In this document: piece by piece, positions 4,201 to 64,000 of the stretch
Position numbering within the stretch: the first letter of the stretch is position 1
Layout: each line of letters begins with the position of its first letter
Assembly: GCA_947034885.2 (NCBI GenBank)
Contig: OX344754.2
Location: 1,054,001-1,118,000, forward strand
Origin: Thuidium tamariscinum
Lineage: Eukaryota > Streptophyta > Bryopsida > Hypnales > Thuidiaceae
Direction: 5' to 3'
Length of the DNA stretch: 64,000 nucleotides
The notes under the pieces: generated by a model
Told to the model about the DNA's origin: nothing
Database searches by the model: none
Seen by the model: only the letters and a program-made list of their open reading frames with translations
Made by a program: the position numbers and the translations under genes

Positions 4201-5619
4201 AAGTTCATTTTTAACTTCACATTTGAATTCAAAATGTCATTTAAATGGATAGGTTCTTTTTTATCTTAAAGTAAATGAATTATATATATATATAAACACA
4301 TACTAAAACTAGTGCTTTAAACTATTTATTTTTATTGCATTCTATCTTTCATTAATTTTTTTAATTTTTTAAAATGTGATATACTACAAGAAACTTTTAG
4401 AAATTACCTAAGTAATCTTGAATTTCAGGTTGGATTTTATCAAATTCTTAAAAATCTAATTGCAATCTCTGTTACAACAAAAACTACAAAGTGCCAAATT
4501 TAAGGGCATGCTTAGAAATCCATTTCCATGACATGTTCATACTCCAACATGTATACTATAAGTGTATCTTGAGGTTTGCCTTCATTCATTTTTATTGCAT
4601 TTTTTGTTTCTTCATATACAACTTAAACTACAATATTTACGACAAGGTATATAAATTTTATCTATGATCTAATCCTTTTTTAAGTATATGATCTATTTCT
4701 TTATACTTCCCTTCTTCACTTTCTCCACCTTTTTTTCTATATTTTTATTACCCGTTTTATTATTTTTTCTTCTATTTTTTGTCATATTTTAAAATTGCAA
4801 TCTTTGACTTCTATTACTAATACCTACTAATTAATTTATAATTATTCTAGGAATCAAATAATTGTGATAACATAAGCCTTATGAGTACTAACTAAGTATA
4901 TACTTAGGACCTTACAACTTTATTTGGTCGACCATGTATATTATAGTCAATAATCTTTGTTTAACATGTAGTCATACTTCTATAAAGGAATCAAATTACT
5001 TCTAACAATGCATAAAGCTTTAGATAACAACTTAAAACTTCTACTTCTACATCACATACTTAGACTATTCAGTACAAATTGCACTCTCTATTTACTTATT
5101 CCATCACCTCTCTCATATGGATTTTCTCACATTCCTTTTTATCTGCTTTGAATTAGGTTTTTCTTCAAGCATTATGTTTATTTTTTCTAAGCTCTAAAAG
5201 CTACAATCTACATCATTAGTTTAAATGCATGAGATTTCATTTTGTATTAATTACTCTTAATATTAGCTTTTAATTTGTATGAACCATTACAATTTGGATA
5301 TGAGCTTACACATATTTTCTGGGATTCCCTAGGAAGTTCCACCAAAAGTTTTATAATTTTTTGATACTCAAAAGACGCCTCTCTAGATAGTCAAGTACTT
5401 TAACCTTCAATGAGAAATTCATAGAAATTACCTAGGTTGTGTTAAAATCTCACTAAAAATTAAAATAGCCTCTTTTTAATGCTAATAAAAATTTCCAACA
5501 AGTTTCATGACATTTCAATAGCTTAAAATACTCAAATTGAAGAGATTGCAATGGAATTTGATTAGCGTTTCAAGAGCAAATGGAATCAAAATGAGGTTCA
5601 AGTTAGGTTTTTTTAATCC
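4201..5619. other. AT-rich intergenic DNA
   Basis: No gene, RNA or bounded repeat recognised. A short TA-repeat sits near 4278-4296. Confidence 0.5.
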
Positions 5620-6275
5620 TTTAGAGCCAAAGTCAAGAGTGTAGTTAGACCGTCTGAAAAAAGTGATAATATAGATTTGAGTTTAGAATCTCATAGAAGA
5701 AGTTGAGAGTTTAAAAAAAACATAAAATATAAAGAAATTTGAGTTCAAATGAGTAAGTTATGAGCAAATGAAGTTTTAAGCATTGATTAGTAGTTAAAAC
5801 TTCATTCATGCAAAATTTCTACTAGTAAGGTTCCATTTGCAAGTGCCACATTAATTTAGAAATTTGATTTTAGATTATACAAGGAAAAAAATTTAAAAAT
5901 TTAAAAATAGTATTGTATTGAAAGTCAAACCAAGAGCTAGAATACATTTAGGGCTAAGGCCAAGAATATAGTTAGACTATTAGAAAAAGGTGAAACTATA
6001 GATTTAAGTTTAAAAGCAAATAGTAGAAGTTGAGAGCTTTTCCAAAACATAAAATATAAAGAAATCTAGGTTGAAATTAGTGAATTGTAAGTAAATGAAG
6101 TTTTAAGTAATGATTTACCGTTAAAACTTCATCCATGCATAACTTCTACTAAGAAGGTTCAATTTGTAAGTGTCGCATCAATTTAAAAATTAGATCTTAG
6201 CTTCTACAAGAAAAAAATAAAAAAATAAATCTGAAAATAGTGAATTGTCAAAAGTTAAATAGAGAGCTAAAGCAC
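5620..6275. repeat. Tandem duplication, two units of ~327 bp
   Basis: Two diverged direct copies: unit 1 carries TAGTTAGACCGTCTGAAAAA near 5642 and unit 2 carries TAGTTAGACTATTAGAAAAA near 5969. Later landmarks (ACATAAAATATAAAGAAAT; TTAAAACTTCATCCATGCA-like) recur at the same offset. No coding potential in either unit. Confidence 0.65.
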
Positions 6276-6722
6276 ATAGAAGTAGAATAGAAGAGCAGTA
6301 GACGAAAATTAGAAGAAGATAGCAAGAAATTGTAAAAGAAATGACACTATAAGAAAATAGTGTCTCGGGTGATGTCTAAAAAAATGCAAAAATACATCAC
6401 TATTGATGTCACCTAAAATGTGTTATAATAGACAAGCAAAAAACATCCTATGTTTTCAAAAAACCTACCAAATCTTTGCATGTTTTTGAAAAACATGTCT
6501 TGTGATATGGGCCTTCAAAGTCTTGAGAGGGTGCCATGTGGCTATCCACATAAGCAAAAATTTGGTAAGTAGTGCCACATATAAATTTTTTTCATCTATC
6601 TACATGGACCCCAAAATGTGCTAACGTGGACCCCAATTATATTGATGTGGCATATTTTGTCAGTACACTTTGGGGTTACTTGAAAATTTTAATGGTGTTT
6701 TCTAAAATATCAAATTAGGGAT
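6276..6722. other. AT-rich spacer with solo CACTA-like end
   Basis: Holds CACTATAAGAAAATAGTGTC at about 6346, which resembles a CACTA transposon terminus, but no matching opposite end was found. Otherwise nothing recognised. Confidence 0.35.
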
Positions 6723-11829: not shown

Positions 11830-12347
11830 AAGTTCACATTTTTCCTAATACTATAATAGTCTTTTCTTTGATCTGCTTGAATTCTATTCAACACAAAATA
11901 GTTAAATTATATTGCTCCAAACTAATTTCTTGACATTTGACACTATATACTCTATATTTATTTCTAGTTATTGTACAAGAATGCACTACTTTTGAATTAG
12001 GTGTTGTTGCAATTAGAACTCATCGAACTCCATGTGTACAAATGGATATATTTTTAGAAACATTTGTTGACTTTGATGGCTTGTAAAGTAACAATCTTGA
12101 TGGAATGCAACCTAGCTTCACTTTTTTGTAAAGCTAAGTAAACCTATAAATGATGCCGTGGATATTTTTTGTTCAATGGATGACAAAAGTTTCCATTGTG
12201 TAGGACAAAATTACAACTATTCATTCTTCACAAAGAAGAAAAGGGAAATCTTGTATATTATTTTGACTTCCAATAAATTCTTTTGAAGTTTTTTATACCA
12301 ATGATTATTCCCATGGTACCAAAATGGATGATTACCAGTCCATCTAT
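11830..12347. other. AT-rich spacer
   Basis: No gene or bounded repeat recognised. Confidence 0.45.
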
Positions 12348-13190
12348 TAACCCCAAAAAGCCCAAGGGGTTAGGACAAAACACAAATGTGCTATAAAATA
12401 TAAGAATTACAACTTTTCTGAAGTTAGTATCAAAGAAGATAATGTAAAGTACAACAAGTAGAAAGTATCCATACAGTCAAAGTAAAAAAAATGTTTTTAG
12501 ATTATTTTTAAATGAATTTTGAAGATATAACTTCAAAAATTCACCAAAAATACAATTTCTATTTTTAGGATTTGAAATTTTTTTTGATTGGTCAGAATTG
12601 TGTTTTTTATTTATTTATAGAAAAATGCAAAATATTCAACCTCTAAAAGCCCAAGGGATTAAGACAAAATACAAATGTGTTATAAAATATAAGCTTTACA
12701 ACTTTTTTGAAGTTAGCATCAAAGAAGATAATGTAAAGCACAAAAAGTAGAAAGTATACATATAATCAAAATTTAAAAAATATTTATAGATTCTCTTCAA
12801 ATGAATTTTGAAGATATAACTTCAAAAATTCACCAAAAATACAATTTCTATTTTTATGATTTGAAATTTTTTTTGATTGGTCAAAATTATGGTTTCTATT
12901 GACTTGTAAGAAAATAAAAAGTATTTACTAATGGGAGCATCATTCAGTAATTCCCCCAAATAGTAAGTTTTTCAACACTAAGCAATTTTAGACACTTTGT
13001 ACTATTTCTCCTTTTTTTTGCTATAACTTTTGTTTGACCGTACTGATCTTAGTTTTGAATATCAATGTTGAAAGAAAACCCAATTTTTTCAAAACTAAAA
13101 AAAAAAAAAATTTGAAATTTTTTTTTTTTTTGCTCAAAAATTCTGCCCGAAGTCAGGCAGCGACCAGAAAATGGTCGCTTGAGCGCTTAG
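12348..13190. repeat. TTAACCCC-ended segment with a 289-bp tandem duplication
   Basis: Begins TTAACCCCAAAAAGCCCAAGG and ends CGCTTAGGGGTTAA, so it could be one TTAA-ended element of about 840 bp. Inside, two direct copies of a 289-bp unit follow each other (landmark CCCAAGG at 12361 and 12650, and the shared stretch ACAATTTCTATTTTTA). The remainder is low-complexity, with long A and T runs near 13100-13130. Confidence 0.55.
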
Positions 13191-14580: not shown

Positions 14581-15573
14581 TCATACAGCTTGCACTGGCG
14601 CTGTTTGGGCAGGCAACACGTTAGATCGACTCGGTGTCAAAGACCCGGCAGCTACACTGTTTTCAGCAACCAGTTTATTCGCTCCGTCTTCGAGAAACTT
14701 GAGATTATCTGAGTAGAATTTAATCATAAACTGGGTCAAATACTCCCGAGTAACTGAGATTACGGGATCCACTTCGTAAGTCCAGTTCACCCACGTCTGG
14801 CCTTCTCCTGCTTCTCCTAACTGCAACCCCCCCAAAACATGTAATAAACACAGATCATTAGTTCACATTGCACCCGCGATTAGCTGTACCCTTATCAGTG
14901 ACGAATTCATACAATCTCTAATCGCCATATTGGGTAAAATGACAAGATTGAACCTCGTATCTACACTACTCGTGTCGGTAGAACTCTATGAATTCCACAG
15001 TTTTGGCAATTTGAAACACGCCATTTCAACGAGTATGGCCATTTCAAGCTCCTAAATCGAGCATAACTGTAGATTTCTATTTCCGCCTATAATTGCCAAA
15101 GTAGTGGAATACGTCAAATTGATACGCTAATTATTTGTACATAAATCACTGAGACTATTTGAGGTGGTAAGGTTCGTGGGCTCACGTACTTGGACTCGGG
15201 CGACATAGCCTTGGAAGCCTTGAGGGAAGACGAAGTGATTCTCTTCCATTCTATACGACATGTAATGCTTGGCCTCGTCCATTTCCAGAAGTCGCTCGTG
15301 CACCCACGTGGTGCTGGCTCCTTTGCAGTAGCGCACACAGCCCACAGCATTCGCCTCCCCCTCCACAAGGCGGCTGACGCTGATGATGGGCACCCATTTG
15401 GGCAGCCCCATGAAGTCCGATTGCAGGCTCCAGGCGGCGTCAAGGTTGCAGTTAAGGATGTGGTGCACTCCGCCGGTCCACTTCTCCGCGCACGGCTTGT
15501 TCCAGGCCGTGGAAGCATTCGTACTGGTCGATTCAGGCGGGAGACCTGTCTCGGTTGCTGAAACGCCTGCCAT
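14581..15573 (-). CDS. START/Bet v1-like (SRPBCC) protein, lachrymatory-factor-synthase-like
   Basis: Two-exon gene on the minus strand. Exon 1 is 15190-15573 (ATG at 15573, 128 codons), and exon 2 is 14581-14820 (79 codons plus TGA). The 369-bp intron has GTACGTGAG at the donor and TTGCAG at the acceptor, both in phase 0, giving 207 residues. After a ~27-residue low-complexity N-terminus comes the fold core: EKWTGG, a helix ending in WSLQSDF, GLPKWVP, LVEG..NAVGCVRYC, WVHERLLEMD, YRM..N, then in exon 2 TWVNWTYEVDP and a long C-terminal helix. This order is that of plant polyketide-cyclase/dehydrase-type SRPBCC proteins such as lachrymatory-factor synthase-like and PYR/PYL relatives. These bind a small hydrophobic ligand in a cavity, usually in the cytosol. 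The ligand and any enzyme activity here are unknown. The gate and latch motifs of abscisic-acid receptors were not evident. A possible acceptor (CATTTCAG) 14 bp before the ATG suggests a 5' UTR intron. Confidence 0.85.
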
Positions 15574-17050
15574 TGTTGTAAGTTTGACTGAAATGGGTTA
15601 ATTTGTACTCACACCCGCTCGCCCCAAGGCCGAAGCTCAACGAAGAATGAGTCCCTTCAGAAATAGAGCTTGCTGGTCTCGTCAATTGGGTGCAATTAAT
15701 CTGAGCATCACGTAACACGAGTTTTGAGGTCAGAAATGAGGCGATGAATTGGACACAGCAGGTTCAAATGATCTCGCCCTATCGACCTGTTATCTGCAAC
15801 AGGACAAACCCAGTCGTCCCTTGCAACTCGGTACATTCTTAGAAATTAGTCCACTGAGTATGGGTTTGTATTCTCTCGCAAGCACGTTAATCCATTCTTA
15901 GCCTCTTCCAATTGAATGCACAAATGATTTGTATCTCAAACTCTCTTATGTCCGATTCTCTGGCTAACATGAACTTACCACAGACAACAGACACAGGAGC
16001 TAGTAAATCAAATAGGAAATTGAACAAATGTCCTACAGTAACTGTTCGGATTCCACTCCTAGTGTATCCTACTGCATCCTCTTTTATCATCACTGCACAT
16101 TGACTACGAAATTCTTCCAAAAATCCATCGATGGATGCATTGGATTTCTCCTGAGAGTGCACCTTACTTACAAAGCTAGGATGCTGGAACACGCACAGCT
16201 AGCGCTTGAACAACAGCCAGGGCTTGAATGTCGAACGTCAGTAACTGCGAAGGCTGGATCGAGATCAATGAAAGGAATGTCTGGTCTGAAATGCATAGAA
16301 CGCTTGAATGTGTATCCTTGTGTCTACCGTGATTACTTGTGGGAGCTCAAGAGAATGTGCCAGCAATATATAGCAAACTAAAGCGCGTCACATGCCTGCA
16401 CTCAGACAGTCGTAGTACGAGAATTGAATCATACTAGCCTACGATCGATATATTGTTTTTACGGTCAATACAATGATGACGGAACCACAATCGAGAGTAC
16501 GTAAACACTAGTCTTTCGATTCCCAGTCAATCTACCTTTCGGCGTGCTGGCGATTCGATTCATCTGAAAAGCTTGCCCTGAAGGCCTGGCCTGTTGGTGG
16601 CCAGTCACACTAATTCAAGCGTTACGGACCCCGGTTACGCTGTTGCCGCAATGAGCGGAGGTGGAGGACAAGTAATAGAGCACCGTGCCACTTTGCGTCC
16701 GTGCGTTACTGCGGATCTTCAAATGTTGGTTCCTGGGAAGGCTTCGGTGGCCCTATGCACGTGGTCGTTTGGCGGTTTGATATGACCGTGTGGGGTATGA
16801 CCGTGTGCACAGTACTGTAAAGTGGGTCGCATTCGGCAGCGCCCGGCACAGAGTGAGGGCACTGCAACAATTTGCACAGGTAGCGTAGGGTACGTCGACC
16901 CCGGCCCCAGTGCAGTCACTGCGCCGAGAATCTTCGCCGTGCGCTCCAGGCCTTCCGTATGCACCCCATAATCTGACGGTGTCGTGACGATGCAACTAAC
17001 TATCAAGTGACCGTGCATTGACGGCAACTGATTAGGTAGCCCGACTGCAA
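15574..17050. promoter_or_regulatory. GC-richer upstream region of the SRPBCC gene
   Basis: This ~1.5 kb lies directly upstream of the minus-strand SRPBCC gene. It keeps many CpG dinucleotides, unlike the AT-rich DNA on either side. It probably contains the promoter and 5' UTR. No TATA box or start site could be fixed. Several overlapping short ORFs on both strands (for example 15.9-16.4 and 16.6-17.0 kb) match nothing I recognise and overlap one another, so none is called a gene. Confidence 0.4.
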
Positions 17051-55675: not shown

Positions 55676-56491
55676 TGTTTCTTTTGAAGATTGTATGAAT
55701 ATTCTAATGTATAGGCCTCGAATATTGGAAGTTTGCAACCTCTATTTATTGGTGTGCTTATTTTGCGCACAATCGAGAAGTTATATTGCAAGATTTGCTA
55801 CGGTTGGGTACATTGTGTATTTTTCATTATAGAATTCACCTTGTTGCCTCCTCTAGCAAACTTCAATACAAAGTGAGTTTGTCACATCTCAAGATGGAAT
55901 GCTTTGCTTACAATACCAATATATACATTGAATTGTTGATCTGAATTTACATACAGGAATATGAGATTCAAGTTACAAATTTGGACTTTTGCATACAATG
56001 AACAAATCTTAATCTATTTCACAAATTCTTAGAACATTAAAATTTTTTTTTTTTATCAATTTGCAATAAATTTTACAAGACTCTAATGCTTTTTTCTTCC
56101 TCTCCTATTTTTCACCATCATCATGTTATTGCTATTTAGTATTCTAAAATAGGGATTATATTATCTTAACAACCATTGATGGTTGTGCATAGCAATGCAA
56201 ATATCTAGTTGATACATACAAAAAAAATTACAAAACTATGAGACACTTAAGATAGGTACACTCAAAATCACACCTTCACAAAAATCATCATTGTCACTCT
56301 GTATACATCTCTAAAATCAATATATGCATATGTTGAAGAAATAGTTCTGAACCATCTACAAAAAATAACTTTGTAACTTTTACACATGTCATGTTCTTTA
56401 GTACGGTGGAACCTCTTGTCATTTAGCAACAAGAAAATATGAAATTTTGACCTATAGTAATTAGGCCGAGAAGCAGAAAGTGGTGGTTTGG
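55676..56491. other. AT-rich spacer
   Basis: No gene recognised; the minus-strand ORF near 56.3-56.5 kb shows no motif. Confidence 0.4.
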
Positions 56492-56635
56492 GGGTACCCA
56501 CCAGTGATCTCAGAACAGATTTAGGATTTTTAGTCAAATGTTCATTTTTGGAAGACTTTTTAAAATTTATACAAAGGGCAAATTAAGTAGAAAATGAGCG
56601 AAATTTAGCCTGTTTTGGGATCACTGGTACCCACC
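56492..56635. repeat. Short inverted repeat GGTACCCACCAGTGATC
   Basis: GGGTACCCACCAGTGATC at 56492-56509 faces GATCACTGGTACCCACC at 56619-56635 as an inverted repeat around a ~109-bp AT-rich centre. It immediately precedes the GC-rich island. It could be a small MITE or the flank of an insertion. Confidence 0.5.
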
Positions 56636-57450
56636 GCAAATCTGGGAGGAAGTTCCAGCCGATCCAGGCTTTCCCCGCTTGCATTGAAAATTGCACCAGG
56701 TCAGATAAGCTCGAGCACGGATCCCACAGTCCTCTCCCGCCGTCGTCAACGTGCAACTGAAGGTTCTTCTTCACGTGGGCGGCTGCAGCCAGGTCTTCCC
56801 TCCAGTGCATTGTTGCCCCTCCTGGCCACAGCTGCCCAGGCTCCCAGTCGGCCCTTCCTTGGTCTTGCAGCTGCTCTGTCTCTGACTCCAGATGAGTTTG
56901 CTCTTCTTGCAGATCGGGTTTCTCGGCGCGCACCTGCACCCAGAAGTGCTCTTTAGGTTACTGATCGAAAAGAAGTCGCAATTGGAGTCTTTGCCAATGC
57001 TCGAGACATACAGGCAGTGATTCAGGGAGCTAGACAGGAAGGAGCTCCGGCTTTTCTGCTCTTGGCCGTCCTCTCTGCGTCCTTTAATTTGCGCATCAGT
57101 CTGTTGGTTGCCAGTTCTCGAGCTATGGCGTCTCCGCATCTATGTCCCGCGAGCCTCTGCGCACAAGGAGGATAAGACGATCGAGGCACTGCTCTTGTGC
57201 ATGCAACGTTGTTCCTGCCTGTGGAGTTCTTCGATTCTCTGCTGCATCATTTCCTCGCTGGAGTGTTTTACACGCGAGAGAGAGCCCACCCCAGTTGATC
57301 TTGGATCCTCACAGCAGTAAGGTATGTGCACTGATCGAAACCCCTGCAAGTTGGAGTTGGAGTTGGAGTTGGAGCGTGGTTCCCTGTGCTACTCTGTGCT
57401 CAGATTTGGTTGGGTTTTGTTAGCAGTTGATCAAGCATTTCAGCAAGTCT
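56636..57450. other. GC-rich island, unidentified
   Basis: About 800 bp of CpG-containing, GC-rich sequence in AT-rich DNA. The longest frames are 56615-56956 (plus; Ser/Arg/Ala/Leu-rich, ending in a TPDEFALLADRV-like stretch), 56583-56939 (minus) and 56771-57139 (minus). They overlap antisense and show no motif I recognise. A hexamer GTTGGA repeats four times at about 57353-57377. A donor-like CAGTAAG/GTATGT at about 57320 suggests the island could be a non-coding or 5' exon of a transcript running right. Captured gene fragment, promoter island or unknown gene remain open. Confidence 0.35.
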
Positions 57451-58179
57451 CGGGGTGTCATTTTGGTATATCTTGTGAGTGAACAATGGATTATGGAAGT
57501 GCTGCCTGGTATCAGTGTTCCCAGTTCGTGTTCCTAGGCTCTTGTGTTGAGTCGGTTTTGAGTTGGACTCGTGTTTGAGAATCTGCAGCGATCGCTTGTG
57601 GGGAGGGTTGCAATTGGGTGTAGTAGCTTTCTATTGGCTTTGCAGCTCCAGGGGTGATACTTGAGTTGGAATTTGTTACCTCCGTGTTGTTCTACTGTAG
57701 AAACTTGTCGATGGAGGGCTGGTTGAATATGCTAAATATAGTATGTCATCCCACAATATGCTGTGATCCATTGCAAATTGGTGCAAGAATTTGGCTCATC
57801 TAATGAATGGTTGCAATTGCTTGTACAGAGACAAGCAAACTTGCAAACAGTTGTAGAGATGGAGGATTTAGACCTCTCAACAGGACCAGTTGGTGTAGAG
57901 TGTGGACATTGGTAGCGTTGACTATGAATTTTCAAGAAGACGAGTGGTGAAAGTGAAGCTTCTTATTTCATTTACAAGGTAAGATTTGTCCTAGAAAAAC
58001 TCTATTTTATGTGTCCTAGTTGTCATTTGCTAACAAAATATGGCATTGCATTTTGCAATTTCAATGTGGAATTCCTTTGAGGGTTTAGTTGTGAGATTGG
58101 GGATAGTGTGTGTATTGTACGTGGTGAATAAACATAGATAAAATTCATAAAATCAAAATTTTGCAACATATATTTAAAT
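57451..58179 (+). other. Transitional sequence, possible 5' leader
   Basis: Intermediate composition with a good donor-like TTTACAAG/GTAAGATTTG at about 57978. It may include 5' untranslated exons of the kinase-NB-ARC gene 4 kb downstream. This is inference only; no coding sequence recognised. Confidence 0.25.
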
Positions 58180-58545
58180 GTTCCACTCGAAAATCTTATT
58201 TGATTTTGTTCATATTGAATGATATTAGGGTTGTTTTCTTCATTTCTTGTGAAGTGCCAAAGTGGCAATATTTCATTTTATTGTAGAATTCCAAATCTCA
58301 ACATTCATCCATATATTGGATAGAAAATACCATATTAGCACATAATACATATCTATCATTTTATTTTCATCCATTATTTGGCAATTTCATCTACTATTTT
58401 AAAAAAGTTTAAAGTCTATTGGTGATTTCATTCGAAATTTTATTGTTTTTTTCCTATAAGCTTAGTACCAAGCCAAAAAAATTGGTGCAATTTTGCACCA
58501 AGTTGCTAGAAAAAAACACATTGAATGACATTAGTTGTTAATAAT
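58180..58545 (+). repeat. Dispersed repeat D, copy 2
   Basis: Same order of landmarks as 13690-14035: GTGCCAAAGTGGCAAT, TTTGGCAATTTCATC, TATTGGTGATTTCATTC, TTGGTGCAATTTTGCACC. More AT-rich than copy 1. Confidence 0.5.
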
Positions 58546-61500
58546 TTTTGAGCCCAATAATACACTACTCAAATATTGTTTGCAAGGCATCAATTTTTAG
58601 TTTGATCTGGTATAAAGTAATCAAGTCATATCATTTTGTTTACAATAATTCTTTGGAGTGTTCGTAACATTAAGTAGCCCATGGAAGGACTGCCTTCCCC
58701 TTGGTGAAGTCCCCATCACATAATTTCATCTGACATTTCTTGGAGTTGCAACTTTAGTTACTAAATGGTGTGGAATGCCATTGGTGTTGGATGGAATGGT
58801 GTGGGATATTCCACACCATTTCATCCGCTAGGAGGCAATGTGACAGTCTACTACTGAATGTAATGTTACTTTTTGGTGTATATATTCTAGTATTCTAGTA
58901 AGAAAGGGCAGTAGTAATAGTCCAATGGTGGTCATCACCTTACAAGACTATCTGATCTCAATTAATATATTATGCTAGGATTGATTATATGATATGAGTT
59001 CTTCCAAAGGCACTATGTTTTTCTCCTGCAACCGCCTTGAAATCTTATTTTATTTTATATACATTTGAGTTATTACAAATGGAGTTGTATAGTAGTCCAA
59101 TAATGCAACTTCTAATAGTCTTTTCAAGTGAGGTACAAGTTTGTGTTTTGGAAGAAAATAAATTTTAATTAATAAATTAACACCCCCACCCCCCAACTTA
59201 TAATTTTTATAAAGCTAATTTACAACAAACAATGTGGGACAACTCCATATATATATTTATATATTTATATATGTATGTATGTATGTATTTTGATTAGTAT
59301 TTGTATTCACATTCATATTTCAGATTGTATTTGACATCAACAAATTTTGTTTTTTTAGAAATTGATAGCATTGGGGGAGCATTTAAAAAAAACAAAAAGA
59401 ATAGGAGCTCTGCATTATTTCATAGTGAAATTTCACTATCTAGAATTCCTTGTTCATTTTTAATTAATGAAGTGCTACAAGGCATCAAAAGATTATAGGT
59501 TGTTTCATATAGTAATTGGTAAATGTTTGTTCATCCAACTTTATTGTACTTTTTTTTTCCACTCAATGATTTTGTTTGTAAGTAGGGTTTCAATTTAAGC
59601 ATGTGGTCATGGCATGAGGTATATACATTATTTCATTGTGCTAGCTTTATGATGGAGTACAAATGAAAGTCATCCAACCTTCAATTTAATTTTTGTTTTG
59701 AACTTTTCAAACTAGTTATGAAATTTTGAAGGTTGAATGAAAAGTTTTTGAATGCATCCCTACTTTGACACGTTTGTTTTTGGTTCATTGAAAAATCCAA
59801 TACATAACTTCGTTTTAGAGTCTCTTGCCTTTTTAGATGAGGAACTAAAATAGATTTGGCGGCTTTCAATTGGAAGAATGATGTTATGTGCAAGCATTGC
59901 CACTATGTTCGCTTTGTGCATTGGAACTTCAATATAAATGATGTGACGATGTGACTGGAACGATGTGACTGGAAAGCTTTGTCTTAGATGAACAATAATA
60001 TTAGTTTTATTGCTAAAAACATACTAAAATACTAAATAGAAAGGAAATTAAACAAAATGATTAAGTTGAAATAAATAGTGAGTTCAACAAAGTTTGCCTA
60101 GGCAACCCTCGTTGGCCATCGAGGGGTTTGCCTAAGTGCTAAGCAACTTCTCCCTTGACCAAACAAGTGCCGAGGCAGCCCCCCCAAACAATCATTTATC
60201 TATGTCATTGTATTGCAGTGTGAATAGGGTAATAGATAAGATTTGGAAATAGAGATCCAAAACCCACCAAGTTGATGCCGTGGACTCTGTCCAAAAAGAT
60301 AGAGCCAACAAAAGAAATCAAGTAATAAACATTTTAAACTTTATTTGTATCTCATAGAAATTCTCATTCATTTTAGAATTTTAAGTCATTTACTTTTGAT
60401 TGATTTGAAGAAGTTGTACTATTTTTTATTTGGAAGCTATATTGCCTTTTGAATTGATAATAATTTTATCCCTAAGTTTAAGCTTTGGTTTGAAATATTG
60501 ACAATCAAGCTATTGAAGGAACTTTGTTTCAACTATGATTTGATGTCATTAACATGCATTGTGGTTAAAAATGAAACAATTACTAATTTTTTTATTTGTT
60601 TCAATTTTTGAAATATGAAATTTGAAAGTATACAAGTATGATAGCCTTGAGAGAAAAACATATGCTAGTAAATCAATCTTAATGCTATTTAGTTCAAATT
60701 TGTAAGTAATGGTGAAATATGGATGTTAATGGATAAGAGTTGGAATTAACCTTGTTTTGCTAGAGTTGGATAAGGATTTTGTAGATGGGTAGAAATGAAC
60801 ATGGTGTTAAAGAGTTGAGAATTTTAGGTTGAGGGCAGTGAAGAATACAATACAAATGCAATGATGAAGACTTACTTTATTGTCATGGGTTGAAATGCAA
60901 TTTTCATCATTCATTGTTTTCATTGTTTCATATTTGATAATAATCAATCATTTTCTAATGGAAGCCTTGAAAACAAGCATGTGAATTAAGTTTGCAAGAT
61001 GGTGTTTGGGGGGTGTTTGACATGAATGAAAGTAAAGAATAGTGACAAAAGTTTATTGTTGTATTGATATGGGTCCAATGACCCATGGTATTATGAGCTT
61101 AATTGATTGTTGTACCTCCAATAAATGTAAGAAGTAACAAAATTTTCATGTATTTAAACTTTATGGTGTTGTATTTGGGTATTATTACATTTACAAGTTG
61201 ATTGTTGAAATGACGTTCAAATAGAAGTTGATCATTGTAGAATGATTAGTCTTCCAGTGTATACCTTGCCACATTTTAGTATATAATTTGAATTCTAGAA
61301 AATGAATACCATATTCTCTATAGTTATTTTGAGGATTAATATACATAATGAAATTGTTCTTTTGATATTCACAAATTATAATTCTATGATTATACCTTGT
61401 TTCTTATAGATAAGAATGTGGTATCTTGCAACTTTCATATTAATATTTTGTTGTTTTTTTGACTTGTTTTCTTTGGATTTGTTTTGAAGCTATTGTAGAA

Positions 61501-61964
61501 TTTTAATATATTGGACTATTTGATGAATGAAATGGCGTGCTTTTTGATGTGGATGGCAACCTTCTTCACTCTTTTTTGGAAATACATGGCTACTATATGG
61601 TTTATTTGGTGAGTATAAATGTTATTTTGTATATATAGGCAATTGAAAAGTACATATTAGAACATAACATTGTTCAAATTACAAAGCTCTTGTATAGTTT
61701 TCTATTTATTTATTTTGAGCTCTACAAAGATTAATTTTTTAAAGTATTTATATACATGATCAAGCTAAAAAGCATATATTCTAATTTCAATAGATTGACC
61801 ATTTTCTTCTTTACCAATGTTCCATGATGTTTAATTTGTAGAATATGTTTAAATCATTAATTTAACATCATATTTGGGGTAATTTCTTTCTTTACACCAC
61901 AACAAAATATCTCATTGACAATTGATATTGAATAATTTGCAAGAAAAAGAAGGATTCCTTACAA
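58546..61964. other. AT-rich DNA upstream of the kinase-NB-ARC gene
   Basis: No gene recognised over 3.4 kb. It holds a small palindrome at 58768-58828 (GGAATGGTGTGGGATATTCCACACC), a TATATTTATATA/GTAT microsatellite at 59248-59290, a tandem GATGTGACTGGAAC at 59940-59972, and an isolated GC-rich patch at 60090-60190 (GGCAACCCTCGTTGGCCATC). Upstream exons of the kinase-NB-ARC gene may be hidden here. Confidence 0.4.
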
Positions 61965-64000
61965 ATGCAAAGTGAATATTGTAAAAGACTATGCAATGTT
62001 ATATCAAGTCTTGAAAAATACTTGAAAGGTATGGAAGGATCTTCCAAGACAAAAGTCTTGAACAAAAATCAATGTATACATCTTTACCGCAAACTCTTAC
62101 ATGTCATGAAAGGGATCAACCAAATGTTGTCAAGTGCTACTAAGGATCTCAAATTCCAATCTATTTTTGAAGAATTATGTCATCTTCAAATGAAAGTAGA
62201 GATAGTAGGAAAAAATTGCCTTGTACAAGATCGATGGCGTCATTCAGTTGTATTTCAACTCCAACACAAAGAAACTTTTCGTGAACTACTTTTAGATTTG
62301 AAGTGTTGTTACAATGCAGCTCAAGATATGTATTTACTTGGCCATCCAATTCAATCAAATGATATCCTACCAATTAAATTTGATGAAACTACCTACGAAG
62401 AAGTCTTTGAAGATGGACAAGTACTAGAGAAGAATTTGGAACTTGTACTTCAAGAAGAAGTTTAAGAGGATTATGAAATAGCAAAACATCTATTGTTGAG
62501 ACTTAGAAATTTGGATTGAGTTGATGGTGGAGACTTGGATGCTCTAGAGGTTCCTAGTAATTTTAAAGCACCAAAATTAATCAAAAAAATTGGTACAGGA
62601 AGTTACGAAGATGTATACATGTCAAATTGATGTGGTCTTACATGTGCTTCAAAAGTATTGGACGGTAGTTTTGAATATCTTATGAACCCTCGAAAAGAAG
62701 CAGGCATCTTGGCAGGCTTGAGCCATCCTAATCTTGTCCAATTTTATGGTTGTGGAACTTCTAAAAAGAATGATGAAAAAGCTAGAATGGGTGAGATGCA
62801 TTTGGTGATGGAACTCATGGAAACAAATTTGTCATCTATATTAAAGACATTGAAAAGACCCTGATCCTATCATCTTGCAATTGATATGATGCACCAAATT
62901 TCAAAGGGTGTGTATTACCTTCATGACATGCAAGTTGCTCATCTTGATTTGAAACCTGATAATGTATTGTCAAATTCAATACCTATGGAGGAGTTGGATC
63001 CTCGCTACATATTTAAAGTCACCGATTATGGAACTTCTCAATTAGAAGTTTGTAGCAATCCAAAGGATCCTAAACCTTCAATGGACACAATTGGAACTCG
63101 TGGATATATGTCCCCTGAAGTGATAAAGGGAAGTAAAACTTCATTGTATCCATTTCAAGCTGATGTGTGGTCATTTGCCATGATATGTTCATAGATTCTA
63201 TCTGGAAAGGTTCCATACTCTAATTTGAAACGAAAAGATTATTATGATCAAATTTCATATATACATGGTAGTAGCAATAAAAACTTGCGACCAGATCTAC
63301 CCAACAATTGTGAAGAATTGACAAATTTAATTCAAGAATGTTGGTCTCAAGACCCTCTTCAACGGCCAACATTTTCCAACATTTGTGAAAGGCTCACAAA
63401 TTTAAAGAAGTCTTTCTTGGAGGGAAAATATTCATATGACATGGTTCCACAATTTGGTTCATCTTACACCTCTAGATGTTTGAGGTTCATCTTGGACTTT
63501 ATAAAATATAGAGTCCATCATGTCCCAAAGGTATGAAATTATTGACCTACAAAACTTCTTTAGTGATCTTTGGTTTTTGCAATTCTCTTTGATGATTGAC
63601 ATTCTTGGTTGTAAGTGAAATCTTTTTTATTTATATAAAAAAATATAGTAAATATGAATTTTGTATTTATACTTGGATTGTACAGGTGGGTGAACCAATC
63701 ACACTCCCAAAGGAAATTCTGGTTGATTTAGATAAACAATTGTCTAGAGCCAAAAAGTTTTTGAAAATGGATTATGTAGGCATTGTTGGCATGGGTGGAA
63801 TTGGCAAGACTACACTAGCAAAGGCAATACTTGATGATGCAACAATGAATTTCTCATACCAAGCATCATGCTTTATTGAGCCTGAAAAAGGTCAAAGCTC
63901 GTATGACATATTGTGCAAGATATTACCAAAACTTGGAAATGATAGGAAACCAACAAATTTCAAAGATGCCAAGGAGATGATGAAGATACTCTTGGTTAAA
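61965..64000 (+). pseudogene. Kinase-NB-ARC (PK-NLR) immune-receptor-like gene, partial, with in-frame stops
   Basis: The first visible exon is 61965-63530 (522 codons, one frame). It is followed by a 155-bp GT-AG intron in phase 0, and exon 2 from 63686 is still open at the window edge. Residues 1-166 are a helical, Leu- and Cys-rich domain (CKRLCNVISSL; ELLLDLKCCYNAAQ). The kinase follows: glycine loop IGTGSYEDVY (209-218), a Lys in CASKVL, HLDLKPDNVL (326-335, Leu where RD kinases have Arg), DYGTS in place of DFG (354-358), GTRGYMSPE (377-385) and ADVWSF. Exon 2 has the NB-ARC start and P-loop GMGGIGKTTLA (557-567). LRRs would lie beyond the edge. From family knowledge, such kinase-NLRs are intracellular immune receptors of mosses and relatives. 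Five stops interrupt the frame: TAA 62463, TGA 62517, TGA 62628, TGA 62862, TAG 63192. There is no frameshift, and homology resumes after each. The ATG may not be the true start; upstream exons are possible. Confidence 0.85.

Follow-up and report, generated by a model that had tools for sequence, protein, structure and literature searches.

A disabled kinase-NB-ARC-LRR gene in the moss Thuidium tamariscinum, probably a recently dead member of a birth-and-death family

The window considered here is a stretch of 64,000 nucleotides from the moss Thuidium tamariscinum (contig OX344754.2, positions 1,054,001 to 1,118,000), at the end of which lies the first part of a gene. The rest of this gene is carried by the sequence beyond the window (L009), where the NB-ARC exon is followed by an exon built of 72-nt LRR units (Table 1). 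The initial annotation had described a kinase encoded in a single frame with five stops over 522 codons, and translation of 61965-63530 on the plus strand bears this out, the stops being TAA, TGA, TGA, TGA and TAG. The remaining five frames of the same stretch contain 29-46 stops each, and 1000 base shuffles gave a mean of 39.8 stops and a minimum of 23, so the openness of the kinase frame is far beyond chance. RNA structure predicted for 62400-62700 was unremarkable (z -1.0).

Table 1. Features of the kinase-NB-ARC-LRR gene, in window positions unless prefixed with L009; relatives are the 17 aligned paralogues.
Feature	Position	Strand	Remarks
Exon 1	61532..61608	+	77 nt, open; phase 2 end at GGTGAGT; encodes MACFLMWMATFFTLFWKYMATIWFI...
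Intron 1	61609..61943	+	acceptor AG shifted by one base at 61941-61943
Kinase exon	61944..63530	+	N-terminal region of ~200 aa, then protein kinase domain; donor at 63531 in phase 0
Stop TAA	62463..62465	+	codon 167; relatives Leu, Ser or Pro 17/17, Gln 0; transversion from nearest codons
Stop TGA	62517..62519	+	codon 185; relatives Arg 15/17, Gln 1, same stop 1 (L037); one transition, at CpG
Stop TGA	62628..62630	+	codon 222; relatives Trp 17/17; one transition
Stop TGA	62862..62864	+	codon 300; relatives Leu 16/17, Ile 1; transversion
Stop TAG	63192..63194	+	codon 410; relatives Glu 16/17, Lys 1; transversion
Intron 2 (kinase/NB-ARC)	63531..63685	+	phase 0
NB-ARC exon	63686..64000, continuing past the window (L009:2687-3727)	+	open, 347 codons; phase 0 at both ends
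LRR exon	from L009:3928	+	10-base deletion near L009:5480

Four stop-free pieces of the kinase exon were searched against Pfam; the short one bounded by stops two and three was not among them. The N-terminal piece returned no Pfam match and the second scored 19.3 bits against PF07714, under the cut-off of 23.1, whilst the third and fourth matched kinase models (PF00069/PF07714) above cut-off. The PF00069/PF07714 domain is whole in the paralogues L031 and L033, and it is on these pieces and paralogues that the N-terminal protein kinase domain expected of the PNL class is recognized. In an alignment of 13 copies (A1), K241, K344, N347 and D368 are invariant and D342 is nearly so, and the subfamily kinases carry HLD where HRD is usual; we presume that these residues and this motif have the customary catalytic roles. 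With a subfamily kinase as query (L031:28-1614, alignment A1), the best PDB sequence match was 6ka4_A (F22L4.1 protein), and 6lba_A came next in a profile search; we take both to be Arabidopsis MLKL proteins. The region of ~180 aa preceding the subfamily kinase had no PDB match up to E 5 and no Pfam match. An MLKL-like module, a helical bundle plus kinase, may conceivably stand ahead of the NB-ARC, and is offered as an open lead.

The NB-ARC exon matches PF00931 (E 3.4e-34) as well as a winged-helix model, and includes GMGGIGKTT, which we take to be the P-loop (this name and that of the MHD motif are used as we understand them). It had been reported as open, and this holds over all 347 codons, without stop or frameshift. 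From 63686 to L009:3727 the exon measures 1041 nt and is in frame at both ends, which points to phase-0 introns at the PK/NBS and NBS/LRR borders. C-terminal LRRs are detected by PF23598 and other models at L009:3928-5517 and 5478-6539. One pair of LRR units is 10 nt short, at 134 nt where 144 are expected, and this deletion shifts the frame after ~14 units have been read. The shifted frame stays open until it meets TGA at L009:6540 and 6612, positions at which Trp is encoded in several sibling units; the comparison is with the exon's own repeat units only, and the two codons perhaps lie near its natural end. With an N-terminal kinase, an NB-ARC containing a P-loop, C-terminal LRRs and phase-0 introns predicted at both borders, the gene, judged by its sequence, belongs to the known PNL class of kinase-NB-ARC-LRR genes, and the kinase stretch forms its second exon.

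The PNL (PK-NBS-LRR) class of Physcomitrella patens comprises kinase, NB-ARC and LRR with phase-0 introns at both borders, as set out in the available extract of PMC3352924, and the window gene shares both the domain order and the phase-0 introns on either side of the NB-ARC exon. Unlike the Physcomitrella genes of that extract, the window copy is disabled; it also has a short additional first exon with a phase-2 intron, on which the extract is silent. Stops within this kind of gene are reported in the accessible part of PMC3991678, according to which Physcomitrella PpC24 transcripts contain a stop where the NBS ends, and two kinase-LRR homologues with stops in every frame are transcribed. PpC24 and the PpKNLs share their architecture with the window gene, in which the stops lie instead in the kinase exon (PMC3991678, same part). 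Among 80 Arabidopsis accessions, NBS-LRR genes belong to the families in which frameshift and premature-stop alleles abound, as summarized in an extract of PMC3521719; that case concerns a different plant and alleles, whereas the present one concerns paralogues. Kinase-NLRs themselves are a known type that is prominently expanded in mosses (extracts of PMC10952240 and PMC11218826).

The kinase exon had been taken to start at the ATG at 61965, and the separate exon 1 had been overlooked. Paralogue kinase exons have a common acceptor ~22 bases upstream of this position, and the ATG is therefore not the start. With 61450-61640 as query, 20 matches were obtained; one is the window itself, and a by-eye comparison with the kinase-exon search placed the other 19 at ~0.3-1.5 kb upstream of paralogue kinase exons. 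Two paralogue copies of exon 1 were retrieved; they encode MARFLMWMASFF... and MVRFLMWMASFF..., are 83 nt long, end in phase 2 and have the same donor. The acceptor AG occupies the aligned place in 18 of the 19 paralogue exons having upstream sequence (17 by script pattern, L036 by eye) and is absent in L044, another broken copy. In the window copy it is displaced by one base, the difference from the paralogues being a transition, and we infer that the displacement would cost the kinase exon one nucleotide. The N-terminus encoded by exon 1 is short, hydrophobic and aromatic, of the form M-A/V-x-FLMWMA-x-FF in the window copy, L063 and L064; its product could possibly be a membrane-acting first helix, by resemblance.

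When the genome (363 Mb, 19 contigs) was searched with the kinase exon, 93 matches were obtained; only the best candidates were scored, and the locus counts are therefore lower bounds. At least 25 close kinase-exon loci exist besides the window copy, with 59-71% amino-acid identity, and the subfamily is dispersed, with at least 26 loci in this genome when the window copy is included. Twenty of the loci were retrieved and 17 entered the codon alignment. L044, L045 and L050, which are frameshifted or 5'-truncated, stayed outside it; L042 was kept despite a local out-and-in frameshift. The two stops that L042 has at locus positions 235-240 were attributed to this frameshift and left uncounted, and the shifted-frame stops of L044 were treated likewise. 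Close NB-ARC loci other than the window number 24 in our table, and 12 of these were retrieved. A tree gave the window copy no close sister, its placement being weakly supported (27 and 24). Kinase matches from a Pfam search of the genome, 20 of which were retrieved as 10-kb stretches, proved to be other kinases with ~26-34% identity and were dropped.

Comparison with the 17 aligned paralogues shows that two of the five stops, at 62517 and 62628, are one transition away from the relatives' codons, whilst those at 62463, 62862 and 63192 need a transversion. The expectation of Trp at 62628 in the initial annotation was correct, as all 17 paralogues have it. The broader claim, that every stop could be reached by a single C-to-T or G-to-A change, is true of 62517 and 62628 alone; moreover, the annotation had named paralogue codons requiring transversions as grounds for abandoning its account, and three of the five stops face precisely such codons. 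A two-step path via Gln at 62463 is conceivable, with Gln shown by none of the 17 relatives. Placing the stops inside introns was considered and provisionally rejected, as the 17 paralogues have open or coding-aligned sequence across the same places. Because all five stops are upstream of the NB-ARC exon, a full-length receptor is impossible by ordinary translation.

The account in question held that a silenced copy decayed through methylation and deamination of cytosine, its stops arising by C-to-T or G-to-A only. As a sole process this is already refuted by the paralogue codons that need transversions, and we regard the account as very unlikely, even though two of the five stops fit it, one of them lying at a CpG and shared with L037, and the acceptor difference is likewise a transition. 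With kappa set at 1 to 3, transitions make up 12-28% of the single changes that could create a stop in the kinase exon, and two transition stops in five thus need no special process.

The deamination account was also weighed against private differences, counted in alignment columns with no more than one dissenting paralogue. In the window kinase exon there are 43, of which 16 are transitions and 27 transversions, and C-to-T and G-to-A, which should dominate if deamination had been at work, make up 6. The same count over the 17 paralogue rows gave a pooled 323 transitions and 175 transversions, with C-to-T and G-to-A at 138/498. Both proportions are lower in the window copy (p 0.05 for C-to-T plus G-to-A and 0.0005 for transitions, the latter strict value coming from one row chosen out of 18). 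Observed/expected CpG in the window kinase exon is an ordinary 0.30 (paralogue range 0.16-0.43, the lowest being L037). Taken with the three transversion stops, these figures leave the earlier claim of transition-driven decay in the kinase exon unsupported. More favourable to deamination is the NB-ARC exon, where 36 of 51 private differences are transitions (15 transversions) and 21 are C-to-T or G-to-A, against 114/371 in the paralogue rows (summed by hand).

The two exons thus contrast in their private changes (16:27 versus 36:15 transitions to transversions, p 0.0017), although the kinase value depends on the threshold. At 80% agreement the kinase exon has 41 transitions and 40 transversions, with L033 then lower, and at 70% the ratio is 73:53, with L040 then lower. 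An excess of transversions as a distinctive mutational process is not established, since it fades at these looser thresholds and is opposite in the NB-ARC exon; the kinase exon lacks a transition excess, and nothing beyond that is claimed. Among the matches listed by our literature searches, judged by title, there was no paper on the mutation spectrum of moss NLR pseudogenes, which does not prove that none exists. L040 (G000:C3:17457924-17459582) is unusual in another respect: its exon is open, the aspartate of HLD reads His, and its private differences comprise 42 nonsynonymous and 9 synonymous changes, 23/51 being C-to-T or G-to-A. It is perhaps a copy that is losing constraint without stops.

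The decay of the window copy had further been said to involve no frameshift and no indels. This stands for frameshifts within the kinase exon, in which every indel specific to the window copy preserves the frame (21 nt gained close to the 3' end, 3 and 6 nt lost); it fails for the gene as a whole, given the displaced acceptor and the 10-base LRR deletion. Five stops with zero frameshifts in one exon have p 0.010-0.085 at 0.03-0.05 frameshifts per substitution and p 0.0008-0.009 at 0.07-0.10, these rates being our own assumption. Against the family tally outside the window copy, 10 nonsense codons and ~5 frameshifts counted by hand, the ratio of 5:0 gives p 0.27. The nonsense codons are distributed over L037 (1), L042 (1), L050 (3), L054 (1), L055 (1), L057 (1) and L061 (2), and the frameshifts over L042, L044, L045 and L050 (two). 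It is highly improbable that the stops of the window copy stem from assembly or sequencing error. Substitution-type stops spread over ~730 bases, the in-frame 21-nt insertion, the displaced acceptor and the LRR deletion resemble decay, and the best paralogues of the kinase exon are only ~79-80% identical in nucleotide sequence along its full length and at most 84% in parts of it, making a collapse of near-identical copies unlikely.

Broken copies are frequent in the subfamily. Stops or frameshifts occur in 5 of the 20 retrieved kinase exons (L037, L042, L044, L045 and L050) and stops in 4 of the 12 retrieved NB-ARC exons (L054, L055, L057 and L061); in the NB-ARC table, 5 of the 24 other close loci have stops. 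Three of the four stop-bearing NB-ARC exons adjoin open kinase exons (L035, L036 and L048), and either part may therefore die first. Eight of the 10 nonsense codons are one transition from the codons of relatives, another requires a transversion, and the last, in L050, which was compared with 7 other sequences only, is ambiguous, so that deamination fits these other members better than the window copy. The contrast in stop spectrum, 2/5 transition stops in the window against 8/9 unambiguous ones elsewhere (p 0.09), is suggestive only; as the stops of the window copy differ from those of the others, a single story of C-to-T decay does not suit the family as a whole. L037 (G000:C7:2278355-2279972), which shares the TGA of window 62517 and whose NB-ARC exon (L061) adds two more stops of the transition type, would be a better candidate for decay by deamination.

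The preferred reading is that the window gene is a recently dead kinase-NB-ARC-LRR gene of the PNL class and an ordinary member of a birth-and-death family, which we hold to be very probably correct. That the kinase-NB-ARC gene is disabled, as first annotated, is supported by the lesions and by reading the gene beyond the window. It displays disabling lesions, retained introns and intact relatives, as an unprocessed pseudogene does, and its stops stand in a mixed transition and transversion relation to the relatives' codons; the presence of intact relatives in the same genome makes it look like an ordinary pseudogene and not like the sign of a special silencing process. After duplication the gene would have evolved under constraint, as its relatives did. 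Constraint would then have been lost, and ordinary substitutions and small indels would have gathered along the gene, giving the kinase exon its five nonsense codons and displaced acceptor and the LRRs their frameshifting 10-base deletion. The locus is probably non-functional, and this is the probable order and timing of the lesions. Nothing observed requires silencing, editing or a new code. Against the birth-and-death account, it leaves the exon contrast in private changes unexplained, the NB-ARC exon is free of lesions, and five stops without a frameshift are rare under the assumed rates.

With stops excluded, pairwise dN/dS has a median of 0.320 in the window kinase exon (paralogues 0.286-0.388) and of 0.267 in the NB-ARC exon (paralogues 0.244-0.328). 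The measure is coarse: it combines the two lineages of every pair and does not respond to a loss that is very recent. These paralogue-like values are consistent with most of the divergence of the window copy having accrued under constraint and with a loss that is recent relative to duplication, in agreement with the earlier suggestion that the loss may be recent. They also bear on whether, with the kinase dead, the NB-ARC-LRR part remains in use, being translated from a downstream start as a kinase-less NL receptor or regulator. To this we assign a low probability. The NB-ARC is open with P-loop and MHD motifs, its dN/dS falls within the paralogue range, and the LRR units ahead of the frameshift could be read; however, that frameshift lies within the LRR exon, and if lesions fell evenly on the 869 codons that the two exons comprise together, all five would miss the NB-ARC with p ~0.08, so an open NB-ARC is not strong evidence of retained function. 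A little less probable still is that the kinase module alone was shed by nonsense mutation with the NB-ARC exon under selection, which would make a kinase-less NLR within the same gene; if this were so, the differing patterns of private change in the two exons would be the trace of different fates.

Pseudogenes in general can yield small RNAs that act on members of their family, and a silenced copy acting on active members in this way was also proposed for the locus. Inverted repeats of at least 25 nt are absent from window 56000-64000; in L009 a single AT microsatellite accounts for five pairs, and there is one other pair, weak and distant. This speaks against such a role, which we consider exceedingly unlikely. 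As the recently dead member of a birth-and-death family that we take it to be, the window copy is one more dead copy among immune receptors. It has modest value as a control, since the stops of other broken copies are mostly of the transition type and its own are not, and the subfamily, with its stop-bearing and frameshifted members, is well suited to the study of how kinase-NLRs die. Elsewhere in the window, an ORF at 15130-15597 on the minus strand matches Pfam Polyketide_cyc2 (E 2.6e-12), and tandem repeats lie at 12345-12900 (289-nt unit, 1.9 copies) and 2235-2682 (177-nt unit, 2.5 copies).
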